From assembly GCA_035574275.1 (NCBI GenBank), contig DATLYY010000029.1, positions 1 through 37,126 of the forward strand: 37,126 nt of DNA. Direction: 5' to 3'. This DNA is from Verrucomicrobiia bacterium (lineage in GTDB: Bacteria; Zixibacteria; MSB-5A5; DSPP01). Position numbers and translations under genes: made by a program. Below are positions 1,836 through 14,660 of this stretch, piece by piece. The stretch's first letter is position 1; each line of letters begins with the position of its first letter. The notes below the pieces were generated by a model that was not told where the DNA came from, did no database searches, and saw only the letters and a list, made by a program, of their open reading frames with translations.

Positions 1836-2732
1836 ATGGCCAAAAAGGTGGAAACGGGAAGCGGCGTCTGGCGATTGCTTATAAATCCGCCTTTGAATGG
1901 CTACCTTAATATGGCCCTTGACGAATTGTTGCTGGAAGAAGCCAAAAGAGGGATGCGCCCCCCCACCCTGCGCTTTTATCAATGGGAAGGGGACTGGATT
2001 TCGTACGGCTATTTTCAAACTCCCCGCCGGGCGTTCAACGTCGAGGCCGCCCGCGAAGCGGCGGTTTCCTCCGTGCGCCGGATAACGGGGGGGAGGGCCG
2101 TTTTGCATTCGGAGGATTTGACCTATTCGTTAGCCGCCGGGGATGCCCAGAAAGAGGGTTTGGGGTCGTCCTTAAAAGAAACCTACCGGCAGATCGCCCG
2201 TGCCTTGACCTCCGGTTTTACGCGGCTCGGTTTGCCGGTAGCGTTTTCTTTGCGACAGGAAAGAGCGGCCCCTTCCCCTTCCGCCGGGCTGGCGGCCTGT
2301 TTTTTGACCTTGTCCGACTACGAAATTTCGGCGGATGGAAAAAAATTGGTGGGCAGCGCGCAGCGCCGGGAGGGTTCCGCTTTTTTGCAGCACGGCTCGA
2401 TTCCCTTAACGGCGCGCAACCGGGAACTGGCGGAGCGGGTCCTGGCGCGAAGTGCGGAAGCAGCATCTCCGGGCAACGGCCTTTCAAACTTTCGCTCCCG
2501 ATACGCCACAGTGGAGGAGGCGGCCGGAAGGGAAGTTTCCATCGAAACGCTTACGGCCGCCCTGCAGGAAGGATTTTCCGGCGTTTTTGGCGTCGAATTT
2601 GAAGAGGAGAGGTTATCATCCAGCCAATGGGCGAAGGCGGAAGATCTTGCGGAGAAATATTCATCCAACGCGTGGAATGAAAGAAAGCCCCGGGAAGCCA
2701 AAGCCGGCTTTTCGGCGGCCGTGCCGGAATGA
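1836..2732 (+). CDS. Lipoate/octanoate protein transferase, LipM-like
   Basis: This is a member of the biotin/lipoate A/B ligase family (298 residues), which attaches octanoyl or lipoyl groups to a lysine of lipoyl-domain proteins in the cytoplasm. The N-terminal NMALDELLLEEA, FYQWEGDWISYGYFQ and RRITGGRAVLH (residues 81-91) are conserved family blocks; the GGRAVLH loop binds the acyl group. A cysteine at 155 (AACF) followed by DYEISADGKKLVGSAQRR with Lys169/170 and LQHGSI resembles Bacillus LipM, an octanoyltransferase with a catalytic Cys. LplA ligases also share the GKK-hGSAQ lysine motif. I favour an octanoyltransferase of the LipM type but cannot exclude a ligase. It stands alone after a 157-bp gap; no good ribosome binding site precedes the ATG. 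Confidence 0.8.
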   Translation: MAKKVETGSGVWRLLINPPLNGYLNMALDELLLEEAKRGMRPPTLRFYQWEGDWISYGYFQTPRRAFNVEAAREAAVSSVRRITGGRAVLHSEDLTYSLAAGDAQKEGLGSSLKETYRQIARALTSGFTRLGLPVAFSLRQERAAPSPSAGLAACFLTLSDYEISADGKKLVGSAQRREGSAFLQHGSIPLTARNRELAERVLARSAEAASPGNGLSNFRSRYATVEEAAGREVSIETLTAALQEGFSGVFGVEFEEERLSSSQWAKAEDLAEKYSSNAWNERKPREAKAGFSAAVPE

Positions 2733-2756
2733 GGCCTTTTATGGGAGAAAAAAATC

Positions 2757-2786
2757 TTGACAAGAAAATGACCGATTCCGTATCAT
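2757..2786 (+). promoter_or_regulatory. Sigma70-type promoter of the TonB receptor cluster
   Basis: A perfect -35 hexamer TTGACA (2757-2762) and TATCAT (2781-2786, five of six to TATAAT) are separated by 18 bp. Transcription should start near 2793, leaving a leader of about 78 nt before the ATG at 2871, which has GGGAGG as its ribosome binding site. The same design occurs at 18724-18753. Confidence 0.75.
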
Positions 2787-2870
2787 ACGTCAAATTATGG
2801 ACAGCGGTTGCAGGAAAGTTTGTAGGTAGGAAGGACTTCGTTTCGGTCTCCGTCATTTCGGGAGGTTCGT

Positions 2871-5800
2871 ATGAGTAAATCGGTACGATTTATTTTTGTT
2901 TCGTTCGTTCTGGCCGGTATTTTGTTCGGGGGATTCAGTTCCGCCTTGGCCGCCAACGGCCAGGTGGCCGGGCGGGTTATAGAGAAAAAGACCAAGGAGC
3001 CGATTTTCGGCGCCAGGGTGCGGCTGCTTTTGCCGGACGGAACCTCCGCCAAGATGGGGGCGGTATCCGACGAGAAGGGGAATTTTCTCATTTTGAACGT
3101 GCCGCCGGGGGATTACCAAATCGAAATCAGCTACGGGCCCACATATAGGAAAGAGTTGTTTAAGGATGTGAAGGTCAAGTCCGACGACAAGTTTGAAACG
3201 GGCACGGTAGCTCTGGCGGAGCAGGCGTTCGAGGGAGACACCGTGGTGGTGACCGCCGGGCGAAAAGCCGAGATTCGCAAATACGAAAGCACCAGCAAGG
3301 TAAAGGTGGATGCCGGGGAAATCGAAAAGCTTCCCATCCGCAACGTCACCGAACTTTTGAAGGTGCAGGTCGGCGTGACTGTCAAGGACGGGCAGATTCA
3401 CATCCGGGGCGGGCGGCACGACGAGACCGTGTTCATCATCGACGGGGTGGAGGTGCGCAACATTTTGACGGGCTCTTCCAACCTCGGGGCGGAAAACTCC
3501 TCCAACATGAGCGTGGGGACGAACAGCATTCAGGAGTTTACGCTCATCAAGGGGGGGTTTGACGCCCAGTACGGCAACGCCACCTCCGGCGTGGTTTCCA
3601 TTTCCACCAAGGAGGGCTCCACGGACCGGACCCGCTTCCACGTGGAGTATTTCACCGATCGGTTCGCCTCCCCCACCTTCAGCAAGTACTCCTTCAACTC
3701 CGACCAGGTGCAGTTCAACCTCTCCGGGCCGGAGCCGTTTTTGGGCTGGATTTTCCCCAAGTTTTTAAACTGGAACACGGACGGGAAGGTGGCCTATTTT
3801 GCCTCCGTGGCGATGGACAAGACCGACACGCACCTTTCCTACAACAAACTGGCCTCCCCCTTGACCCGGAAGGATTTCGCCTCCACAAGCATCCTGGGGT
3901 TCGAAATACCGGACCGCAGCCAGAACACCTACAATACCCAGTTGAAATTCACCATCCGCCCCTCCGGTCTTTTGAAGCTGAACGTGGACTGGAAGGGGGA
4001 GTATTTGCGCTACAATTTCGTGGGACGAAATTTGCAATGGAGCTACCGCTATTCCCCCTCCACGGCCCAGGTGGTGAACGACCAGACCAACACCTTCAGC
4101 ATCAGCGCCGAGCACACGCTCTCCAAAAACACCTTTTACCGGGCCTTGATTTCCCACTACGACAAGGTGTACGTGGAGCGCCCGGGGGACCCCTACAACC
4201 CGGCCCACGGGAAAAACCCGGATTTGTTCAATTTTGAAGACCAGAGCGAAAGCTACAATGACATGAACAACAACGACCGCTGGGATGCCGGGGAGCCGTT
4301 CGTGGACGTTTTCCGCGAGGACACCACGGCAATCGGGGGACCGATTTACACCCCGCCCAACCCGGCGACCGGTTTCCCCGGCGACCCGTTCCAGGACTTG
4401 AACGGCAACGGGGTGTACGACGGGCCGGAGCCGTTTTTCGATGTCAACAACAACGGCCGATATGACGCCGACCGGGCGGACATCACCGGCGCGGACACGG
4501 ACATTCCGGAAAAGTTTGTGGACGGGGACGTCATTTTGGGGGAATCGTTCATCGACATGGATAAAAACGGGGTGTACGACCCGGCCATCGACCGCTTCAT
4601 CACCTGCAACTGCCCGGAAAACCAGGATTTGAATTTCAACTCCCAATATGACGGCGCGGGAAGCCCGTACACGGTCGGACTGCCGTACCGGGACTTGAAC
4701 GGCAACGGGGTGTACGACCCCCCCAACGGGGCCGCCATCCGCGAGGACGGGGAGCCCTTCATCGACCGGAACGGCAACGGGGTGTACGACCCGGGGAACA
4801 ACGGCTTTGTGGAGCCGGGCACCTACGTTTCCTCCGCGAACAGCACCCGGTTTCTGCCGGCCTACCAGAAACACGGCGTGGCCCAGACCACGTTCAAGTT
4901 CGATTTGAACTCGCAAGTGGGGACCCATTATCTTTCCTCCGGGCTGCAGCTCGATCTGGCCAAGCTGACGATGAACGACATCCAGGCGGTGCAGGTGCGC
5001 TACGCCGGTATTCCGGACTTTCAGGAATTTCCCGACCGGGGGATCACCCGCGACTCCTACGTGCGCCGGCCCTTGATCGGGGACGTTTACTTCGGCGACC
5101 GTGTGGAATACGGCCAGCTCATCGCCAATTTGTCCTTGCGCTACGATTTCTTTTTCCAGTCCGCGGGCTTGAACAGCGTGCGGGCGGCCGAGATTCTGGG
5201 GGACAAGCAGCCGGACCCGGTGAAAAACAAGCTCTCCCCGCGGATGGGCTTTTCCTACCCCATCAGCGAGCGGGCCAAGCTCTTTTTCAACTACGGCCAT
5301 TACTTCCAACTGCCGAACTTGAACCAGTTCTACCGCCGCTCCAACAACGTCACCACGGGGTTCGGCACGGTGGGGAACTTCAACCTGGACTACACCAAGA
5401 AAATCAAGTACGAATTCGGCAGCGAGATTCTTCTCTCCAGCAACTACCGGGCGGTTTTGACCGGCTTTTACAACGACGATTTCGGGCTCATCAATTCGCT
5501 GGTGAACCGCTACGGCAGCTACAACCGGGAGGAGTACGTCAACACGGACTACGGGCGGACGCGCGGGTTCGAGGCGGAGCTTTCCAAGGTGGGGGGAAGC
5601 TACTTCCAGGGATACCTGGACTACCAGTTCTCCATCGCCCTGGGGAAGAGCTCTTCGGAAATTTCCAACTTCCTGGACCGGCTGGCGGGAAACGAAATCA
5701 ACATCCAGGAGTTCCCGCTGGACTGGGACCAGACCCACCAGATTACGGTGAACTTGAACGTGAACGTCCCGAACGGGGACCATCCCCAGCTTTTCGGGCT

Positions 5801-6215
5801 CCGGATGCCGGACAACTGGAACATGAACTTCATCTGGCAGTACGGCTCCGGTTTTCCCTTCACCCCCAGCAACGTGTATCCCGGGCTGCCGGCGGCCCGC
5901 ACCGATTTATCCCGCCGGAATTCGCTCCGGCTTCCGCCGAACAGCCGGGTGGACGTCCGCTTTCAAAAATCGTTCCGGGTATGGAAGCAGGACTACACCT
6001 TCCAGCTCTGGATAAGCAACTTGTTCGACCGGAAGAACGTGGCCGCCGTTTCCGGCGGAGGTTCCAGCAATACCGGGCGGACCAACACCAACTTGGTTCG
6101 GCTGGACCCGGTGAGCGGGTACTACGTGGCTTTGCCGGGGACGCCGGTGCAGGACGACCCGCGCAACTATGAAACCGGCCGGAACATAAAAATGGGGATT
6201 TCCATTGACTTTTAA
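2871..6215 (+). CDS. TonB-dependent outer membrane receptor with inserted calcium-loop-like repeats
   Basis: The 1114-residue protein has a Sec signal peptide (residues 1-28, cleavage after ALA). A carboxypeptidase-regulatory-like domain follows (about 30-115, GRVIEKKTKEPIFGARVRL). DTVVVTAG (123-130) is a TonB-box-like segment, and a plug domain lies at about 135-240 (IHIRGGRHDETVFIIDGVEV). The beta barrel ends in the aromatic terminal strand GISIDF, as outer membrane barrels do. Such receptors import ligands with energy from TonB, or act as transport pores in Bacteroidetes-like groups. Oddly, residues 464-640 carry seven DxNxNGxYD-type loops, likely facing outside. The gene is first in a cluster and has a strong promoter and ribosome binding site. 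Codon use is strongly biased to C-ending codons, as in highly expressed genes. The ligand cannot be read from the sequence. Confidence 0.9.
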   Translation: MSKSVRFIFVSFVLAGILFGGFSSALAANGQVAGRVIEKKTKEPIFGARVRLLLPDGTSAKMGAVSDEKGNFLILNVPPGDYQIEISYGPTYRKELFKDVKVKSDDKFETGTVALAEQAFEGDTVVVTAGRKAEIRKYESTSKVKVDAGEIEKLPIRNVTELLKVQVGVTVKDGQIHIRGGRHDETVFIIDGVEVRNILTGSSNLGAENSSNMSVGTNSIQEFTLIKGGFDAQYGNATSGVVSISTKEGSTDRTRFHVEYFTDRFASPTFSKYSFNSDQVQFNLSGPEPFLGWIFPKFLNWNTDGKVAYFASVAMDKTDTHLSYNKLASPLTRKDFASTSILGFEIPDRSQNTYNTQLKFTIRPSGLLKLNVDWKGEYLRYNFVGRNLQWSYRYSPSTAQVVNDQTNTFSISAEHTLSKNTFYRALISHYDKVYVERPGDPYNPAHGKNPDLFNFEDQSESYNDMNNNDRWDAGEPFVDVFREDTTAIGGPIYTPPNPATGFPGDPFQDLNGNGVYDGPEPFFDVNNNGRYDADRADITGADTDIPEKFVDGDVILGESFIDMDKNGVYDPAIDRFITCNCPENQDLNFNSQYDGAGSPYTVGLPYRDLNGNGVYDPPNGAAIREDGEPFIDRNGNGVYDPGNNGFVEPGTYVSSANSTRFLPAYQKHGVAQTTFKFDLNSQVGTHYLSSGLQLDLAKLTMNDIQAVQVRYAGIPDFQEFPDRGITRDSYVRRPLIGDVYFGDRVEYGQLIANLSLRYDFFFQSAGLNSVRAAEILGDKQPDPVKNKLSPRMGFSYPISERAKLFFNYGHYFQLPNLNQFYRRSNNVTTGFGTVGNFNLDYTKKIKYEFGSEILLSSNYRAVLTGFYNDDFGLINSLVNRYGSYNREEYVNTDYGRTRGFEAELSKVGGSYFQGYLDYQFSIALGKSSSEISNFLDRLAGNEINIQEFPLDWDQTHQITVNLNVNVPNGDHPQLFGLRMPDNWNMNFIWQYGSGFPFTPSNVYPGLPAARTDLSRRNSLRLPPNSRVDVRFQKSFRVWKQDYTFQLWISNLFDRKNVAAVSGGGSSNTGRTNTNLVRLDPVSGYYVALPGTPVQDDPRNYETGRNIKMGISIDF
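4260..4795 (+). repeat. Seven EF-hand/dockerin-like loop repeats inside the TonB receptor
   Basis: Aspartate-led loops of the form D-x-N-x-N-G-x-Y-D begin at residues 464, 509, 524, 562, 586, 608 and 632 of the receptor. Typical examples are DLNGNGVYD, DVNNNGRYD and DMDKNGVYD, usually followed or preceded by GEPF(I/V)D. Two copies are identical over about 27 bases of DNA (from 4395 and 4692). Similar loops bind calcium in dockerins and thrombospondin type 3 repeats; calcium binding here is inferred. Confidence 0.8.
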
Positions 6216-6240
6216 CGCCGATTTTGCAAGGAGAAGAGGA

Positions 6241-9200
6241 ATGGCTATCCGGCGCATTTCCGCAGTGGTTTTGGGGGCGATTTTGACCGCCTGGTTTGGC
6301 GCGGCTTCGGGACGGATGCTAAAGGACGTTAAGACGCAGAGTTCCGCGCTCCCCTCCGCGTACAAAGTGAACGCCGCCTGTTTGCCCAACAAGGACCAGT
6401 GCACCCACAAGGTGGGGCGGTTGTGGTTCACGGTCACCAACTACGGATTTTTCGGAAACCAGACGGACCAAAACCTGCGGGACTGCCTGACCGGCGGGCT
6501 TTCCTCCTCGGCGGAATTTCCGGGCGGTTCGCGGGTGGAATATCTTTTTCAAGGGGCTTTGTGGGTGGGGGCGGTGGTGGCGGGGGACACCCTTGTATCC
6601 CTCGGCACGGACGGCTGGGTTTTTGATTCGGACCGGGGGGAGCTGCACGCCGACTGCGAGAATGTGGGGGGGATGATCAAGCGTTCCAGAAACCCGAACA
6701 GCCCGTTTTACGACAGCGTGAACGCCATTTCCGACCAGGATATCATTGCCGTGATGTACGATACTCTGACCGATCCGGGTTTTGTGGAAAACCCGGACCC
6801 GCAGGACGGCAAACCGTTCCGGCCGATGGGACTCAAGGTCATCCAGAAAAGCTATTCCTGGTCGGCCGGCTGGGGGCAGGACTGGGTGATGCTGGACTTC
6901 AACATTGTCAATCTGGGCCAGAAGCCGCTTTCAAACGTTTATTTGGGGGTGTTTGTGGATGCCGACGTGGGGCATTTCGGCACGCCCAATTATTTTGAGG
7001 ATGATTTGTCGGGTTTCAAGGTTTCTGTGCCGAACGAGCGGCTGGCGGCCTGCCCGGACACCATCAATCTGGTGTACGTGCACGACGACGACGGGGATCA
7101 AATCAACGGCGCTTACCGGCCGACCAGCCCGACGGGGGTGACCGGCATCCGGGTGGTGCGGGCGCCCGTGCCGCTGAACCAGGTGAAAACCTCCTTCAAC
7201 TGGTGGACCCCCAACGGAACCGTATCGCTGGACTGGGGCCCGCAGAAGGTGCCCGGGCGCCGGAACTTTTCCGGCGGGCTGGGGCAGCCGGAGGGGGATG
7301 CGATGAAGTATCACTACATCTCCAACGGGGAATTTGACCTGGACCAGATTTGGAGCGCGCTCAACCACAATTCCACGGACTACGGATTCGGCACGGGCTG
7401 GATGCCCCCGCTTTCCGACGCGGCGGCCGCCATCGACATTGCCAACGGGTTTGACACCCGCTACGTGGTGGGATACGGCCCCTTCAATCTGCTTCCCTTG
7501 GTGGACGACCCGAGCGACACGCTGCGGCTTACACTGGGATACATTGCCGGTCTGGGGTTCCACCGGGATCCCTCCAACTACAACACCAATATCGGGGCGG
7601 TTCCGGAAAATTTGCGCGACCCGTTCAAAATCGAGCGCTATCAGAGCAACTTGAATTTTCAGGCCATCGCCACCAACGCCCGCTGGGTGCAGCGGGTTTT
7701 TGACAACGAAACCATCATTGACACGGTTCCCTGCGGAAACCCCGGAGATTCGGTGGAACGGCGGTTTGGAGACGGGATTCCGGACTTCAAAGGGCCGCAG
7801 CCGCCGCCGATCCCCCCCGCGCAGGTGATTACCAACCAGGGGGAGATTCTGGTGCGCTGGTTCGGCAAGAACACGGAAAACGTGGTGGATGATTTTTCCG
7901 GAGGGCTGAAGGATTTCGAGGGATACCGGATTCAGCTTTCCCCCAACGGGCAGTACTGGACGACGGTGGGATCCTTCGACAAAGTGGACTGGAAGGTGCA
8001 TATCCTTAATACCCGAAGAATTGACACTGTCGGCACCTCCGGCACCTGGCAGCCGACCGAATTGCCGCCTTTGAGCTGGGACGAGATTCAGCAAAGATAT
8101 GCAGTTCTTTGGGACACCTGCCTAAACAAAGTGGACAGCATTACCGACCCGCTCAATTGGCGCTATACAATTAACCGGCCCATTGACCCCAATAAGTACA
8201 AAGCTCCAACGGGCGTAAGAAGTGCAACCCCCGGTATTGAACGGCCCGGTGTGGATGTGACCCGGTGCAATCCCGACACGACCAAGACAGCCATTCGGGT
8301 GCGTATTTGTGCAAGCTGCGGGCCCGGTAATCAACCGGTGGACGAAATTATATATTTCGCGCCGCAGGATTATAATTTGGGGCTTTCACAGGTCAAGCTC
8401 TACCCGTCGGTGACCGACCCGGATAACGACAGTTCCTACTGGTACCAGTACAAAATATCCGGGCTTTATCCGGGGCAGGCGGTGTATCTGGCGCTGACGC
8501 CGTTTGATTTTGGCATTCAGACCCCAGTCAATTTTTTGGAGCCGCTCGAAGTGACTCCCAACTCGGCCGCCCAGCTTGTATATCCTTTGCCCAATGAGGA
8601 GTCCCGCCGCTACAGCTACGCCGTCTTTACCTACGATTTGGCCGCCGGGAGCTGGCGGGCGAACCCGTCGGCGATTATGAACTACGGGCTCATCCAGACC
8701 ACCTACGCCGGGCTTTGGGACACCTGCAACACGCGGGTCATCGACCCTGACAAATTCAACGGGCCGGACAGTCCGGCGCCGGACCCTTCGCGCTGCAACC
8801 CGGACTCGAGCCGGCGGGCCATCTCCATCCGCTTCTGCGATGCCTGCGGCCCCGGGGGAACGCCGGTGGACAGTTTGTTTTATTTCTCCCCCAGCGACAC
8901 CTTCAAAATATCGGTTTATCCCAATCCCTACCGGGTGGACCACGATTACAGCCACTTTGAAAACCCCAACAACGAGGTGCGGGATCCGGCCACGCGGGAG
9001 CATTTCCGCAAGTTGAATTTCATCAATCTGCCGGCCAAGTGCGTCATCCGCATCTACACTTTGGACGGGGATTTGGTGCAGGAGATCCGGCACGACAAGA
9101 ACCCGAACGCCTCCGATGCCGGGTACGAGTCCTGGAATTTGCTGACCCGCAACGCCCAGGCCATATCCGCCGGGCTGTACCTTTACACGGTGCAGTCCAG

Positions 9201-9267
9201 CGACGGGATTTGGACCGAGGATGGTTTGAAGAACACCCATGTTGGGAAAATCATAATCCTCAAATGA
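6241..9267 (+). CDS. Large secreted protein with a Por/FlgD-like C-terminal sorting domain
   Basis: This 1008-residue protein has no family I can name for its main part. The start is set at the ATG at 6241, which follows AAGGAGAAG and opens a signal peptide (MAIRRISAVVLGAILTAW); an earlier ATG at 6205 overlaps the receptor gene and lacks the signal sequence. The body looks beta-rich with fibronectin-like stretches near residues 515-570 (PPIPPAQVITNQGEILVRW). Two related Cys modules lie at 623-710 and 825-886. The C-terminal SVYPNPYRVD, the strand RIYTLDGDLVQEI and the ending GLYLYTVQSSDG to KIIILK match type IX secretion-like or FlgD-like sorting domains. It lies 25 bp after the receptor and before a PorV-like barrel, so it is probably exported and held at the surface with them. 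Confidence 0.8.
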   Translation: MAIRRISAVVLGAILTAWFGAASGRMLKDVKTQSSALPSAYKVNAACLPNKDQCTHKVGRLWFTVTNYGFFGNQTDQNLRDCLTGGLSSSAEFPGGSRVEYLFQGALWVGAVVAGDTLVSLGTDGWVFDSDRGELHADCENVGGMIKRSRNPNSPFYDSVNAISDQDIIAVMYDTLTDPGFVENPDPQDGKPFRPMGLKVIQKSYSWSAGWGQDWVMLDFNIVNLGQKPLSNVYLGVFVDADVGHFGTPNYFEDDLSGFKVSVPNERLAACPDTINLVYVHDDDGDQINGAYRPTSPTGVTGIRVVRAPVPLNQVKTSFNWWTPNGTVSLDWGPQKVPGRRNFSGGLGQPEGDAMKYHYISNGEFDLDQIWSALNHNSTDYGFGTGWMPPLSDAAAAIDIANGFDTRYVVGYGPFNLLPLVDDPSDTLRLTLGYIAGLGFHRDPSNYNTNIGAVPENLRDPFKIERYQSNLNFQAIATNARWVQRVFDNETIIDTVPCGNPGDSVERRFGDGIPDFKGPQPPPIPPAQVITNQGEILVRWFGKNTENVVDDFSGGLKDFEGYRIQLSPNGQYWTTVGSFDKVDWKVHILNTRRIDTVGTSGTWQPTELPPLSWDEIQQRYAVLWDTCLNKVDSITDPLNWRYTINRPIDPNKYKAPTGVRSATPGIERPGVDVTRCNPDTTKTAIRVRICASCGPGNQPVDEIIYFAPQDYNLGLSQVKLYPSVTDPDNDSSYWYQYKISGLYPGQAVYLALTPFDFGIQTPVNFLEPLEVTPNSAAQLVYPLPNEESRRYSYAVFTYDLAAGSWRANPSAIMNYGLIQTTYAGLWDTCNTRVIDPDKFNGPDSPAPDPSRCNPDSSRRAISIRFCDACGPGGTPVDSLFYFSPSDTFKISVYPNPYRVDHDYSHFENPNNEVRDPATREHFRKLNFINLPAKCVIRIYTLDGDLVQEIRHDKNPNASDAGYESWNLLTRNAQAISAGLYLYTVQSSDGIWTEDGLKNTHVGKIIILK
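8107..8370 (+). repeat. Cys module, copy 1, in the secreted protein
   Basis: Encodes residues 623-710, beginning LWDTC and ending YFAPQD, with cysteines at 627, 676, 690 and 693. It is homologous to copy 2 at 8713-8898. The DNA is visibly richer in A and T than its surroundings, for example ATA, AAT, AAA and GTA codons that are scarce in the rest of the gene. Confidence 0.75.
8713..8898 (+). repeat. Cys module, copy 2, in the secreted protein
   Basis: Encodes residues 825-886 with cysteines at 829, 852, 866 and 869. It shares LWDTC, RCNPDSS, AISIR, C..CGPGG.PVD and YFSPSD with copy 1, but lacks about 26 residues from the middle of copy 1. Codon use is the normal C-rich pattern of this cluster. 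Confidence 0.75.
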
Positions 9268-9292
9268 GCGCGAAGGAAAACGGACGGTGCAT

Positions 9293-10282
9293 ATGAAAAA
9301 AACAGCGGCAGGGATTTTGCTCGGCTTGCTCTGGGCGGGCGGTTCCGTCTGGGGACAGGCGAAGGTCGGCACGGCCGGGCTGCAGTTTCTGGAAATCGGG
9401 GTTTCGGCACGGGCCACCGCGATGGGGAACGCCTTTGCGGCGGTGACCAACGACATTTTCTCCGTGTACTACAATGCCGCCGGGCTGGCCGCCCTTTCCC
9501 GCCGGCAGGCGGCTTTCACTCACATCGATTACCCGGCCGGCATTCACTACGAGTTCGCCGCTTTGGCTCTGCCGGTACGCAAACTGGGAGGGGTCGTGGC
9601 GGTCTCCGTGTATGATTTTCAAAGCGGGGACATTCCCGTCACCACCTACAACTTTCCTTCCGGCACGGGGGAAATTACCAAGGCCCAGGATTTGGCCCTG
9701 GGAGTCACGTTTGCCCGCTACCTGACCGACCATTTCTCCTTCGGCTTCACCGGCAAATTCATTGTGGAGGCGTTGGATGACCGGGAGGCCTCCGGCTGGG
9801 CGGCGGACGTGGGCACTTTGTATGAAACCGGTTTCCGGAATTTCCGGATTGCCATGCGGATTTCCAACTTCGGTCCCAACTTCCGCTTCGGCCCTTCCGA
9901 CGAAAACTTCAAGGACTTTCCGCTGCCGATCGACTTTCATTTCGGCACGGCGATCGACGTGGTCCAATCCCCGCAGCACCGCACCACGCTGGCTTTTGAG
10001 GGGAGCCACCCGGCCGACAACCTGGAAAAATTCAACACCGGGGTGGAGTACTGGTATTCCGAAAAGATTGCGTTGCGCGCGGGGGTCAACATCCGCCAGG
10101 ACACGGACGCCCAGGAGGTTTTGACCGAGGACACGCGCAAATTCACCACCGGCGTGGGGTTTTCGGCGGGGGCCGGGTTCAAGCTTCCCGTGCAGCGTTT
10201 CAACCTCACCGCCGATTACGCCTTTCAGGACGCCCATGATCTGGGCTCCTTTCACCGCTGGTCGGTTTCTTTCACTTTCTAA
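9293..10282 (+). CDS. PorV/UPF0164-like outer membrane beta-barrel protein
   Basis: The 329-residue protein has a signal peptide (MKKTAAGILLGLLWAGGSVWGQ). The following VGTAGLQFLEIGVSARATAMGNAFAAV...IFSVYYNAAGLA is the hallmark N-terminus of the PorV/PorQ and UPF0164 barrels (GA..L.i...ar..amG.A..a.....a...NPAgl), and the protein ends in the barrel-like WSVSFTF. In type IX secretion PorV is the outer membrane shuttle that carries cargo with C-terminal sorting domains. Here it follows just such a cargo by 25 bp, supporting a functional pair. A GTG at 9287 is an alternative start with better spacing to the AAGGA at 9273; the ATG at 9293 gives the cleaner signal peptide. No other PorN/K/L/M-type gene is in the window. 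Confidence 0.82.
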   Translation: MKKTAAGILLGLLWAGGSVWGQAKVGTAGLQFLEIGVSARATAMGNAFAAVTNDIFSVYYNAAGLAALSRRQAAFTHIDYPAGIHYEFAALALPVRKLGGVVAVSVYDFQSGDIPVTTYNFPSGTGEITKAQDLALGVTFARYLTDHFSFGFTGKFIVEALDDREASGWAADVGTLYETGFRNFRIAMRISNFGPNFRFGPSDENFKDFPLPIDFHFGTAIDVVQSPQHRTTLAFEGSHPADNLEKFNTGVEYWYSEKIALRAGVNIRQDTDAQEVLTEDTRKFTTGVGFSAGAGFKLPVQRFNLTADYAFQDAHDLGSFHRWSVSFTF

Positions 10283-10309
10283 ATGCGCATAAAGGAGAAG
10301 TTTACCGGA

Positions 10310-12286
10310 ATGAAAAGGGTAGCATACGGGTTTGCTTACCTTGCAATTTTTGGCCTTCTTTTATCGGCCGGATGCACGGTGAAAAGAGTCGGGAAATCGC
10401 ATCAAAACACCCCCCCCAAGGTGTTTTTCTCCACCGTGCCGGTGGCCGGCACGGTCTTCACCCGGCCGGACCAGTTTTTCTGGTTTGCCTTGGACCGGGA
10501 CGGCTACATCACCGAGTTCCAGTACGCTTTGGTGCCCGATTCGGTGGTGCGGATCACCTTTTCCCCCCCGGAGAAGGAGGATTCCGTGGTGCGGGCCTTT
10601 TTGAGCGCCCATCCCGTGGATACGGACACCCTTTGGCACTGGAGGGTTGTGGACAACATTTTTAGAAACGGCCAGACCGACACCATTGCGCTGCCGACTT
10701 CCAGCCGGAATCCCGGGGACACAGCGACCCGGAACACGGTGGTCTTTGTCCGGGCGCGGGATGACCGGGGGGCGCTTTCGACCGCGAGCCGGAATTTTCC
10801 GGATTCCAACAGCATTGCCTGGCGGTATTTTGGGCGGAAAAACCGGCCGCCGAAGACACACTTTCAATCCATAGGCACCTGCAACAGATCGCCGGTGGCA
10901 AACCCGGGGTTGATACCCACTTTTTATTCCTTGGATTTCAACACGTATGACACGAGCGGATTTATGAAGGTGGGGCACTGCGGCATAACCATCTCTTGGT
11001 TTGGTTCCGATTCGGCTGATTATCCCAATCAGGAGCAGCCGCAGTTTGATTATTTTTGGGAGCTTTTCGGGCCGTTTGCCTCCACTCCCAATGCGGATAC
11101 CAACCGGCTTTGGGCCAGCACCACCTATCCGGTCCGGTGGCCCGGGCCGGGATCCGGCCAAAGCCCCACTCGGCAGACTTTCACATCGGCCACGTCGGTC
11201 ACCTTCTTCGGCCTGCGGGGGGCTGACACGCTTACCAATTTCCGGCCCGGGCTTTACCATTTCCGGGTGCGGGCGCGGGACGACGCCGGCGTGGTGGCCC
11301 CGCTGACCGTGTTCGCCGGCTCACCGGGGGCCGCCATCAATAACTTCCGGGTGGTTCATCCCCGTTTTGACCGGGATATCCTGCTGGTGAGCAAGTCCAC
11401 GACTACCGGCGGCGGCAGTTTCCTCAACAACGTTCCACCGTACGGGCTCATACCGGACGGCTCCACGCCGCCGCAGGAATCGATGCTGGTGCAGAATTAC
11501 TATCTCAAGCTTATCCGGGACGCCGGCTACGGCGCCCGAATCGATTCGGCTTTGGACGTGAAGTTTTTCAGCGAGAAGTCGGATCCCAACTTTTTATCAA
11601 CCACTCCTCCCATGCCCCTAAGCGAATCGCTTTTGGCCCGCTACAAGCTGGTCATTTTCCATAAAGAAAAGGTTTTTCCAACCGCTAACACCAATTTTCT
11701 TTCCATGCTGAAGGCGTACATGGATGCCGGCGGAAGCGTGTGGGGGATGGGGCGGGACGACTTGAGCGATTTATCGTTGAATTTTGGCGTGGCGCAGCCG
11801 GTCGAGCTTTTCTTTGAGCGGACCAACCCGATTCAAGGAGCGGGGTATTTCAACTTTGGTGCGGAAAAGATGTTTTATCATGCCCACGCCCTGTCCGTGG
11901 CGCGGGACAGCATAAGCCGGGAGGAGTTCGTGGGGGCCGATCCGAGCGACGACGCCACCGGCGAGGGATTTCCGCCTTTGGATATCGACACGGCGGTGGT
12001 TTTGCGCTACACGGTGGCCGCTTCGCGAAAGGATACCTCGCGCTACCGGCAGATGCCGGGCGTCAACTATTTTGTGCGCCAGCCGCGCAGCGAATTCCTG
12101 TATCTTTTCCGCTCGCCGGTGGGGGTGGCGGACACTTCGCACCTGCACGGCAAGGTGGTCGCCGTCCGCACGGATCGAACCTTCTTCAAGACCGCTTACT
12201 TCGGTTTCCCCCTGTACGGAATCAAGGAGTCCCAAGCCGTGCAGGTGATGCAGAAGATGCTGAACTGGTTTATCGGCCCGCCGTAG
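10310..12286 (+). CDS. Large outer-envelope lipoprotein of unknown function
   Basis: This 658-residue protein starts at the ATG at 10310, which has AAAGGAG nine bases upstream; an ATG at 10283 is less likely. A lipoprotein signal peptide ends in LLLSAGC, so Cys22 should be lipidated. Residues about 30-330 form beta-sandwich segments of fibronectin or Ig type (FWFALDRDGYITEFQYAL, later YHFRVRARDDAGV). The second half (about 355-655) begins DRDILLVSKST and has VIFHKEKVFPTANTNFLSMLKAYMDAGGSVWGMG, resembling a class I glutamine-amidotransferase-like or ThuA-like alpha/beta fold. I see no evident catalytic Cys-His-Glu triad. It is the last gene of the surface cluster and is followed by an intrinsic terminator. 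Confidence 0.7.
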   Translation: MKRVAYGFAYLAIFGLLLSAGCTVKRVGKSHQNTPPKVFFSTVPVAGTVFTRPDQFFWFALDRDGYITEFQYALVPDSVVRITFSPPEKEDSVVRAFLSAHPVDTDTLWHWRVVDNIFRNGQTDTIALPTSSRNPGDTATRNTVVFVRARDDRGALSTASRNFPDSNSIAWRYFGRKNRPPKTHFQSIGTCNRSPVANPGLIPTFYSLDFNTYDTSGFMKVGHCGITISWFGSDSADYPNQEQPQFDYFWELFGPFASTPNADTNRLWASTTYPVRWPGPGSGQSPTRQTFTSATSVTFFGLRGADTLTNFRPGLYHFRVRARDDAGVVAPLTVFAGSPGAAINNFRVVHPRFDRDILLVSKSTTTGGGSFLNNVPPYGLIPDGSTPPQESMLVQNYYLKLIRDAGYGARIDSALDVKFFSEKSDPNFLSTTPPMPLSESLLARYKLVIFHKEKVFPTANTNFLSMLKAYMDAGGSVWGMGRDDLSDLSLNFGVAQPVELFFERTNPIQGAGYFNFGAEKMFYHAHALSVARDSISREEFVGADPSDDATGEGFPPLDIDTAVVLRYTVAASRKDTSRYRQMPGVNYFVRQPRSEFLYLFRSPVGVADTSHLHGKVVAVRTDRTFFKTAYFGFPLYGIKESQAVQVMQKMLNWFIGPP

Positions 12287-12301
12287 GGGCGAATCGTTTC
12301 T

Positions 12302-12328
12302 AAAAACCCCGCTTTGGCGGGGTTTTTT
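12302..12328. terminator. Bidirectional intrinsic terminator
   Basis: A GC stem CCCCGC (12307-12312) and GCGGGG (12317-12322) with loop TTTG is flanked by AAAAA on the left and TTTTTT on the right. It can therefore end transcription of the surface cluster and, on the other strand, of the convergent minus-strand gene whose stop lies at 12327. Confidence 0.92.
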
Positions 12329-14633
12329 ATTGCCGGGAATTCAGCAGCGCTTCCACAATTGCCAGCTTTTCCCGGGCAGGCGGGAAGTTCGGGTTCAGTT
12401 CCAGCGAACGGCGAAAAGCCTCTCTGGCCTTTAGAAACTCGTTCAGCTTGGCCAAGGCCAGCCCGTAGTTGTAGAAGAGGGCGAAATTGTCCTGCTTTTG
12501 GGAAAGGGCTTTTTCAAAGTAGGGGAGGGCTTCCGCCGACCGGCCGGCATAGTCCAGGGCGGTTCCCAAATCGGCGGCCGCATCGGCATTGGCCGGGTTT
12601 TCGACCAGCGCTTTTTGGAAATAGTCCATGGCGCGCGGAAAGTCATTCTGCTCCCCGCGGCTGCGCCCGAGGAGGTAAAAGATGCGGGATTTCAATTCGA
12701 CCAGGTTTTCTCCAAACTCCCGCGAAGCGACAAAAAAAGGCTGGGGGTCATACGACGGCTGATAGTTTTGCAGACTATCCAAGAGGGCCTGCAGAAGCGG
12801 TTCGGCCGCCGCGTAGCGCTTGGCTTCCAACAGGAACGAGGCCTTTAGGAAACGCCCCAAAAGAAAGCTTGGGCAGTTCTTTTCCCCCCGCTGCAGAACA
12901 AAAAGCGCGCTGTCGGGCATTTGCAGGGCGCGGTAGGCCAGGGCCCAGTTCAAATAGGCGTCCTGAAAGTAGGGCCTGGCGGCGGCCGATTTTTCCGCCC
13001 AATAAACCGCCAGTCGGGGGAAACCTCTCAACCGCTGGATGAGAGAGAGGTTGGCGGCCGCTTTTTCCGATTGGGGGTCCACTTCCAGCTCTTTTTTGAA
13101 CTCTTCTTCGGCAGTTTTCAAGTCCCCCTGCTTCAGCGCGACCACCCCCAGGTTCAAGTGCGCGTATTTGAATTTCGGATCGAGTTGAACGGTCTGGTGA
13201 AACAACTGCCGCGCTTCGGCCCAGTTCCCCTGCTCCAAATGAACGTTGCCGAGGCGAAACAGGCCGGCGGGTTTGGGATTCTTGGTAAAGCCGTAGAGAT
13301 TGGAATTGACCAAAGAGGAAAAAATGGCCAAGGCCGCAACATAGAAAAGAAGGTTTTGCTTTTCGCGAAAGCGCCTCCACAATTCAAACACGGCATAAAC
13401 CGCAAACAAAGTCAAAAACGGCAGAACCGGCAGGCGGAAGCGGGCGTTGACGAAAAAAAGAATGACGGAAAAAGCATAAAGCAAAACAAAAAAGGAGAGG
13501 AACCGGGCTTTGCGGTTCACAAAGGAAAACACGAGGCCCAGTAGCCCCAGCGGGCCGATGAGCCAGAAGCCGATGGGAAGGAATCGAATAAGCGAGGAGT
13601 TTTTCCAGAAAAGATAAATGTCCTGATTGTTGGAAATCTCGAATCGCGTGAAGAATAAATAGGTTTTTTTCAAAAGCAGTTTGAGGGCAGCCGCCGGTTC
13701 GCTTTTCCAGTACTCCAGCCCTTTTTTATACCAAAAGTCTGACAATTCGGCGGAGGAAAGCTCCGTTCCCGTTTCCGCTTTGGCCATCGCGCGGATATCC
13801 GCCAGTTCCCAGTTGGTCTGCAGCCGCCCCGGCATCATAGAAGTGAAACCGTCGGCGTCCGGGTTATTGCCGATGTAGAAGTTGATACCCCCTTGGGAGG
13901 CGATTAAAACCAACGGTTTTTCCGCCCGGTAATTGTGGATGGCCACGGGCAGAATGGGGAGAAAAACTCCGATGAGAAACAAGGCGGCGAATTTAAATTG
14001 CCGTTGCAGAATTTCGCTTTTGTGGAAGCAGTACCAAATCCAGAAAAGAACGGCGGGAATGAGAATCAGAATGTTGGGCCGCGTGATGGCGGAAAGCCCG
14101 AGCCAAAGACCGGTTAGGAGCCAGTTGAGCGGCGATGGAGTTTCTTTGGCCTTGTACAGAAAGATAAAAATCAGCAAGTCGAGCGGAATCAAGAGGAAAT
14201 CCAAAAGCAACTCACCTTCGAAATAAATAACGCTTGCATATGTTGCAAAAATGACGCCTGTAACAATGCCCATCTTTTTTCCAAAGAGACGGACGGCCAA
14301 AAGGACAAGCAAGACCACACCCAGCGCTCCGATGACGTACTGAACGATTCGGGGCGCGAGGTAATTGTGCCCGAAAACATAATAGACCAGTCCCAACAAA
14401 TAGGGATAAAGCGGAGCGCGGAAAAAGGCCTGGGGCTGGGCCAACTTGCCCGCGGCCACGGCCTGCGCCCATTCGTCGTGATAGCGGGCGTCAAGAGTCG
14501 GGTATTTAAAGGTTGGATTGGCGTAAATCTGCGACAGATACAACAGGCGACAAAAAAGGGCAAAAAGGAATAGGAGCATCAGGGTTTTTTTTGTGAGTGT
14601 ATTTTTTGCCTTGCTGGTAAGGGTATCGTTCAT
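12327..14633 (-). CDS. GT39/ArnT-like membrane glycosyltransferase with C-terminal TPR domain
   Basis: The 768-residue protein has two parts. Residues 1 to about 440 are a polytopic membrane domain with roughly ten hydrophobic segments. An early loop DARYHDEWAQAV (48-59) and FRAPLYPYLLGL match the acidic and substrate-facing loop of the PMT/ArnT superfamily, which moves sugars from polyprenyl-phosphate carriers to targets on the periplasmic side. From about residue 450 to the end, TPR units follow (FRLGNVHLEQGNWAEARQLF, LNLGVVALKQGDLKTAEEEF, LGTALDYAGRSAEALPYF, YNYGLALAKLNEFLKAREAF). The TPR part may bind acceptor proteins, as in other GT-TPR fusions. An in-frame TTG at 14657 would add eight residues; neither start has a good ribosome binding site. 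It lies just after the SDR gene, probably as one operon. Donor and acceptor are unknown. Confidence 0.82.
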   Translation of the reverse strand: MNDTLTSKAKNTLTKKTLMLLFLFALFCRLLYLSQIYANPTFKYPTLDARYHDEWAQAVAAGKLAQPQAFFRAPLYPYLLGLVYYVFGHNYLAPRIVQYVIGALGVVLLVLLAVRLFGKKMGIVTGVIFATYASVIYFEGELLLDFLLIPLDLLIFIFLYKAKETPSPLNWLLTGLWLGLSAITRPNILILIPAVLFWIWYCFHKSEILQRQFKFAALFLIGVFLPILPVAIHNYRAEKPLVLIASQGGINFYIGNNPDADGFTSMMPGRLQTNWELADIRAMAKAETGTELSSAELSDFWYKKGLEYWKSEPAAALKLLLKKTYLFFTRFEISNNQDIYLFWKNSSLIRFLPIGFWLIGPLGLLGLVFSFVNRKARFLSFFVLLYAFSVILFFVNARFRLPVLPFLTLFAVYAVFELWRRFREKQNLLFYVAALAIFSSLVNSNLYGFTKNPKPAGLFRLGNVHLEQGNWAEARQLFHQTVQLDPKFKYAHLNLGVVALKQGDLKTAEEEFKKELEVDPQSEKAAANLSLIQRLRGFPRLAVYWAEKSAAARPYFQDAYLNWALAYRALQMPDSALFVLQRGEKNCPSFLLGRFLKASFLLEAKRYAAAEPLLQALLDSLQNYQPSYDPQPFFVASREFGENLVELKSRIFYLLGRSRGEQNDFPRAMDYFQKALVENPANADAAADLGTALDYAGRSAEALPYFEKALSQKQDNFALFYNYGLALAKLNEFLKAREAFRRSLELNPNFPPAREKLAIVEALLNSRQ

Positions 14634-14660
14634 TCTTAATAGTCGGTTTTCAACCAAGAA

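Follow-up and report, generated by a model that had tools for sequence, protein, structure and literature searches.

The window analysed here, a stretch of 37,126 nucleotides from a Zixibacteria genome assembly, encodes a TonB-dependent receptor (2871..6215; 1,114 aa; all window features given below are on the + strand) whose extracellular loop L4 (aa 438–663; 4182..4859) is, according to the structural models, a helix-free domain of 200-odd residues or more, with EF-hand-type loops placed 15–25 residues apart or wider. This calcium-loop domain is undescribed so far. I consider it likely to be a self-folding surface domain on a TonB-dependent transporter, presumably stabilised by bound Ca2+, which would dock a partner or hold a substrate. 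The architecture, the position in the model, the conservation, a recurrent module and the gene neighbourhood speak for this explanation, while the low pLDDT of a shallow model, the weak prediction for aa 480–510, non-acidic residues at loop position 12 and Asn at loop positions 3 and 5 count against it.

Behind a signal peptide, the receptor possesses an N-terminal CarboxypepD-regulatory-like domain (aa 31–107; 2961..3191; PF13620 6.8e-10, PF13715 1.2e-9), followed by a plug domain (aa 139–241; 3285..3593; PF07715 6.4e-9, above cut-off) and a TonB-receptor barrel (PF00593 7.7e-16); the NCBIfam TonB receptor matches are all below cut-off. Between the N-terminal domain and the plug, the motif DTVVVTA (aa 123–129; 3237..3257) was recognised by eye, and I take it to be akin to the Ton boxes of E. 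coli. An AlphaFold2 model of the full-length protein, built from 24 sequences, has 22 countable barrel strands, with strands 1–7 at aa 255–437 (3633..4181; DSSP) and strands 8–22 at aa 664–1114 (4860..6212). The top Foldseek matches of this model in the PDB are all TonB-dependent transporters (PqqU, PhuR, PfeA and BtuB; E down to 2e-28), which it resembles in the plug, the 22-strand barrel and the Ton-box-like motif, and from which it differs by the additional CarboxypepD_reg domain. All of this agrees with the receptor identity proposed in an earlier note on this DNA. TonB_C proteins are encoded in the source genome, and the receptor would be energised by TonB; it is a putative TonB-dependent transporter, for which active substrate transport is predicted. 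SusC of Bacteroidota is likewise a TonB-dependent receptor with an N-terminal CarboxypepD_reg-like domain and surface-protein genes nearby, but the present receptor carries a loop domain in L4 and has no SusD-type partner among the scanned neighbours, in which the SusD Pfam family was not matched.

When strands are counted from the periplasmic plug in the AlphaFold2 secondary structure, most short turns are periplasmic and the insert points outward, between strand 7 (aa 421–437) and strand 8 (aa 664–683). The insert is therefore predicted to be extracellular loop L4, with the strand numbering read off the secondary-structure string, and the model places the loops between barrel strands on the outside, as the earlier note had supposed. 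Among homologs, the region that corresponds to aa 438–691 of the window protein is 214–321 aa long. In the full-length model most of the insert has a pLDDT below 50. A model of the fragment aa 420–710, obtained with 80 homologs, has a mean pLDDT of 82.9 and a pTM of 0.53. In this fragment model, aa 549–639 are nearly without helix or strand at a pLDDT of ∼95, aa 480–510 stay at ∼54–67, and no helix of four or more residues is found in the insert. The ordered stretch aa 549–639 belongs to extracellular L4 in the model, rather than to periplasmic turns. Such a prediction, coil yet ordered, fits metal-loop domains. A fold search of the insert against the PDB gave nothing better than E 0.38, and a sequence search of the PDB with the window insert alone gave no match; for the domain profile, the sole PDB sequence matches were weak ones to the EF-hand sensor GCAP1 (E 0.13 and 0.27).

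The receptor contains seven loops that follow D-x-[ND]-x-[ND]-[GDS]-x-[YW]-D, as identified by motif and homolog alignment. These are loop 1, DMNNNDRWDAGE (aa 464–475; 4260..4295), loop 2, DLNGNGVYDGPE (aa 509–520; 4395..4430), loop 3, DVNNNGRYDADR (aa 524–535; 4440..4475), loop 4, DMDKNGVYDPAI (aa 562–573; 4554..4589), loop 5, DLNFNSQYDGAG (aa 586–597; 4626..4661), loop 6, DLNGNGVYDPPN (aa 608–619; 4692..4727) and loop 7, DRNGNGVYDPGN (aa 632–643; 4764..4799), each range opening with the codon of the first D. A further motif, DGDxxxGE, is located at aa 551–558 (4521..4544). Seven loops in this place, accompanied by GEPF(I/V)D spacers, had been read in the earlier note, and both readings hold: GEPFVD and GEPFID occur in the sequence, along with the variants PEPFFD and GESFID. 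Position 6 is D in loop 1 and S in loop 5, and none of the loops contains Cys. The pattern D.[DN].[DN][GDNS].[YFW]D is matched seven times, versus 0.006 expected upon shuffling the whole protein and 0.011 upon shuffling aa 455–660 only (5,000 shuffles of each kind, with a maximum of one match in any of them). A stricter motif at the DNA level has 11 matches in the 2.5-Mb genome, five of which are inside the receptor gene, and none for the reversed-pattern control. Of the motif matches elsewhere in the genome, one belongs to an FG-GAP-like/dockerin-like protein and another to a subtilisin-like protein; these are unrelated.

An alignment of 87 homologous sequences was used to map conservation. 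In L4, 14 of 223 residues are identical in all 87, including D464, E475, D509, D551, D553, G557, E558, D562, D586, D632, N636 and D640; these comprise the position-12 Glu of loop 1, three residues of loop 7 (D632, N636, D640) and four of the DGDxxxGE motif. In all seven loops, at least 94% of homologs have one of the four residues D, N, E and S at positions 1, 3 and 5 (nearly always D or N), and ∼90% or more of the 87 have strictly D or N there; at position 9, one of these four residues occurs in at least 87%. Most homologs show the features of an EF-hand-type loop (D/N at 1, 3 and 5, D/N/S/T at 9, Gly at 6) at all seven aligned positions, and every loop has retained a position-specific signature of its own. 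Position 12 is acidic (E or D) in loop 1 in 87/87 sequences and in loop 2 in 85/87, so that in these two the canonical EF-hand pattern (PMC3123361) is complete. It is Asn in loop 6, non-acidic in loops 3 and 4 and mixed in loops 5 and 7, and the sites of these last four loops would require other ligands. At positions 3 and 5 Asn predominates, and this would be expected to lower calcium affinity.

It has been shown that Dx[DN]xDG loops bind Ca2+ in many unrelated non-EF-hand folds, mostly extracellular, even where no secondary structure flanks them; a new site arose when one such loop was transplanted between two strands (Rigden et al. 2011, PMC3123361). Four Ca2+ are bound by an irregular insertion of a Thermococcus subtilisin, and motif-bound calcium acts in folding (PMC3123361). 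The loops of L4 are alike in ligand spacing and in the lack of flanking secondary structure, and the insert resembles the irregular subtilisin insertion, which is stabilised by several Ca2+. The loops differ by a predominance of Asn at positions 3 and 5 and by forming a tandem of about seven, and an outer-membrane barrel context is absent from that study. Both the ligand positions and this literature agree with the proposal that the loops are of the EF-hand calcium type, a type also used in non-EF-hand proteins.

The insert could in principle be a dockerin, EF-hand or TSP3 domain, since these possess tandem EF-type loops of identical consensus, and Dockerin_1 was matched at E 0.0012 in one homolog (3/80 at E ≤ 0.1). 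I nonetheless find this barely credible, as the insert model has no helices of four or more residues, the window insert matches no Pfam calcium family, and no PDB fold match was obtained; the insert also lacks a cysteine pattern and has [G]EPFxD spacers of its own. The EF-hand family was rejected for want of a helix-loop-helix in the insert model, and dockerin for want of helices, with the window protein unmatched and only those three homologs weakly matched. TSP3 repeats are mostly coil. They were rejected because there was no match at E ≤ 1 for the window protein and none at E ≤ 0.1 for the homologs, and because the loops have no Cys. Membership of GEVED was rejected on Pfam, model and homolog tests.

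The earlier note had also reported near-identical DNA in two copies, and attributed it to recent internal duplication. A 27-nt block is indeed identical at 4395–4421 and 4692–4718, with 21 nt of it found again at 4770–4790, but the identity between loop copies is confined to the conserved coding motif and ends there. Compared with their positional counterparts in other species, the loops score 0.44–0.58, versus 0.28–0.47 with the other loops of the same protein, which indicates that the array is old. Recent duplication is rejected, given the phylum-wide array, the position-specific signatures and an identity that does not extend beyond the motif; sequence comparison points to an ancient array. 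Under the codon bias, a 27-nt identity would arise by chance with a probability of ∼5e-4 for one given pair, and since the block is therefore improbable, a small gene-conversion event is possible.

The same evidence bears on whether the insert might be a metal-free, acidic and flexible linker of low complexity, its repeats arising from recent slippage. The repetitive composition of the insert (39 acidic and 11 basic residues in 206 aa), the low pLDDT of the 24-sequence model and the one identical 27-nt pair would suit such a linker, but the ligand residues are invariant across the phylum, the loop signatures are position-specific, the pLDDT is high with a deep alignment, and the DNA identity is limited to the motif and owes part of its extent to codon bias. 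I regard this linker as very improbable.

Within the domain, a conserved core module of ∼104 aa (aa 541–644; 4491..4802), which includes the stretch of pLDDT ∼95, is shared with small lipoproteins. A profile search of the phylum also matched frames of 330–380 aa, and the ten that were fetched are lipoprotein-like, with an invariant Cys where the signal region ends and the module near the N-terminus (loci L141–L147 and L149, for example L141:1384-2448 and L142:6906-7946; L142 and L145 hold two copies each). Aligned with hhalign, the receptor and lipoprotein alignments match with a probability of 100 (E 7.6e-42) over 101 columns, at 43% identity. The C-terminal parts of these lipoproteins match no family, except for DUF3108_like in one. 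Their genes have no common neighbourhood and lie apart from the receptor cluster, and the profile search did not detect them in many genomes, that of the window included. Since the module recurs on proteins without a barrel, the C-terminal half of the L4 domain probably folds without the barrel. No Pfam family or solved fold was found here for this module, whose ∼100 residues make it suited to expression and structure solution.

Barrel peptides, and not the loops, served as probes in a scan of the GTDB genome set, which identified 80 loci. Nearly all of these bear the title Zixibacteria/Zixiibacteriota or GN15, and some only 'bacterium'; by title, the outliers are one Calditrichota and one Ignavibacterium. 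All 80 possess loops, 4–10 by a loose pattern, and the comparison with relatives suggested in the earlier note thus reveals a number that varies between lineages. With the domain profile, the domain was found in 82/83 sampled genomes of the phylum (mostly metagenome assemblies), usually in one receptor, and the sole exception (G001) is a masked contig, with N in that stretch. This contig (L013, G001:C6), of the same genus, reads N from just before the receptor loop region onward. Across Zixiibacteriota, each genome has essentially one copy of the receptor, whose role in these bacteria is probably a basic one. Seven of seven paralogous receptor genes, including one of the window's own genome, are without loops. 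The domain thus seems confined to this orthologous group, and as anticipated the loops are no usual part of TonB receptors. What is an ordinary loop in the paralogs examined is in this receptor a whole calcium-loop domain, kept through an uncultured phylum with its ligand residues invariant or nearly so. Outside the phylum, coverage consisted of the barrel-probe scan, plasmids and viral contigs, and no relatives of the domain were found on plasmids or in viral contigs. A search for papers that treat calcium or type IX secretion together with Zixibacteria and TonB-dependent receptors returned nothing.

Downstream of the receptor, the window encodes a 1,020-aa secreted protein of no Pfam family (6205..9267), with a weakly T9SS-sorting-domain-like C-terminus (NCBIfam, below cut-off), an outer-membrane protein of the PorV/PorQ family (9287..10282; NF033709 1.9e-62) and a 667-aa lipoprotein-like protein with no Pfam family above cut-off (10283..12286). 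The order lplA-like gene, receptor, (1,020-aa protein), PorV-family protein, lipoprotein-like protein is largely kept across the phylum (window 1836–14657; L047–L126), and ends at a convergent mannosyltransferase-TPR gene. The lplA-like gene is upstream in 53/64 loci. Where enough sequence is available, a PorV-family gene is downstream in 44/48 loci, adjoining the receptor in 30 and separated from it by the 1,020-aa-type gene in 14, the latter being absent from this place in many lineages; the 667-aa-type gene follows in 37/48. The source genome also contains an SprA-family gene (G000:C79:23013-27851; L127, L128; 641.6 bits over joined stretches), and a type IX secretion system is accordingly likely in this non-Bacteroidota lineage, as judged from sequence. 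Near the SprA gene lies a gene for an FG-GAP/VCBS-like repeat protein (L046, G000:C79), which contains many DxDxDG loops and is dockerin-like at its end.

In the preferred explanation, the acidic L4 chain would cross the periplasm and the assembling barrel unfolded, and meet millimolar Ca2+ outside the cell. Each DxNxNGxYDxxE-type loop would bind one Ca2+, and above the barrel mouth the chain would condense at the surface to an ordered cap. In L4, the core module with its four loops (the C-terminal half) would be an autonomous fold, and the N-terminal half contains a 15-residue-type repeat of variable number. The cap would most likely hold a substrate or dock a partner at the surface, for which products of the same gene cluster are plausible candidates, such as the PorV-family protein, the large secreted protein or the lipoprotein; this substrate or partner is the least certain part of the explanation.

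In BtuB, calcium bound near the extracellular substrate site restrains loop L2 and raises the affinity for B12 ∼1000-fold (PMC7360065). By this precedent, the loops of L4 may instead order the extracellular mouth as a calcium-dependent lid, under which a small nutrient or metal complex is bound tightly, with no partner protein. BtuB is among the fold matches, and the domain is located over the barrel mouth in the model. However, BtuB has a small cage of five aspartates, and not a multi-loop domain of 226 aa; the occurrence of the module on barrel-less lipoproteins means that a pore is not required, and the conserved PorV-family linkage hints at a role with surface proteins. Such a lid is possible, but I find it doubtful.

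The domain could also be a docking or adhesion module, with the receptor L4 and the lipoprotein modules binding the same surface ligand or each other, and uniting an outer-membrane complex with T9SS-type neighbours. Two architectures carrying the module, the cluster of PorV-family, secreted and lipoprotein genes and the SprA gene in the genome suggest this, against which the module lipoprotein genes are unlinked to the receptor cluster and undetected in many genomes, including the window's own; this reading, too, I find possible but doubtful. That the domain represents a new calcium-dependent family, so far only in Zixiibacteriota, which folds at the surface and serves as a shared docking module joining the phylum-wide receptor, the lipoproteins and T9SS-type proteins, I consider unlikely; if true, it would constitute a surface assembly system distinct from SusCD.

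A second calcium-loop architecture is possible in one further genome (G014), where a 719-aa lipoprotein-like protein (L151:94-2250) contains nine EF-type loops by the loose pattern, in a different arrangement.
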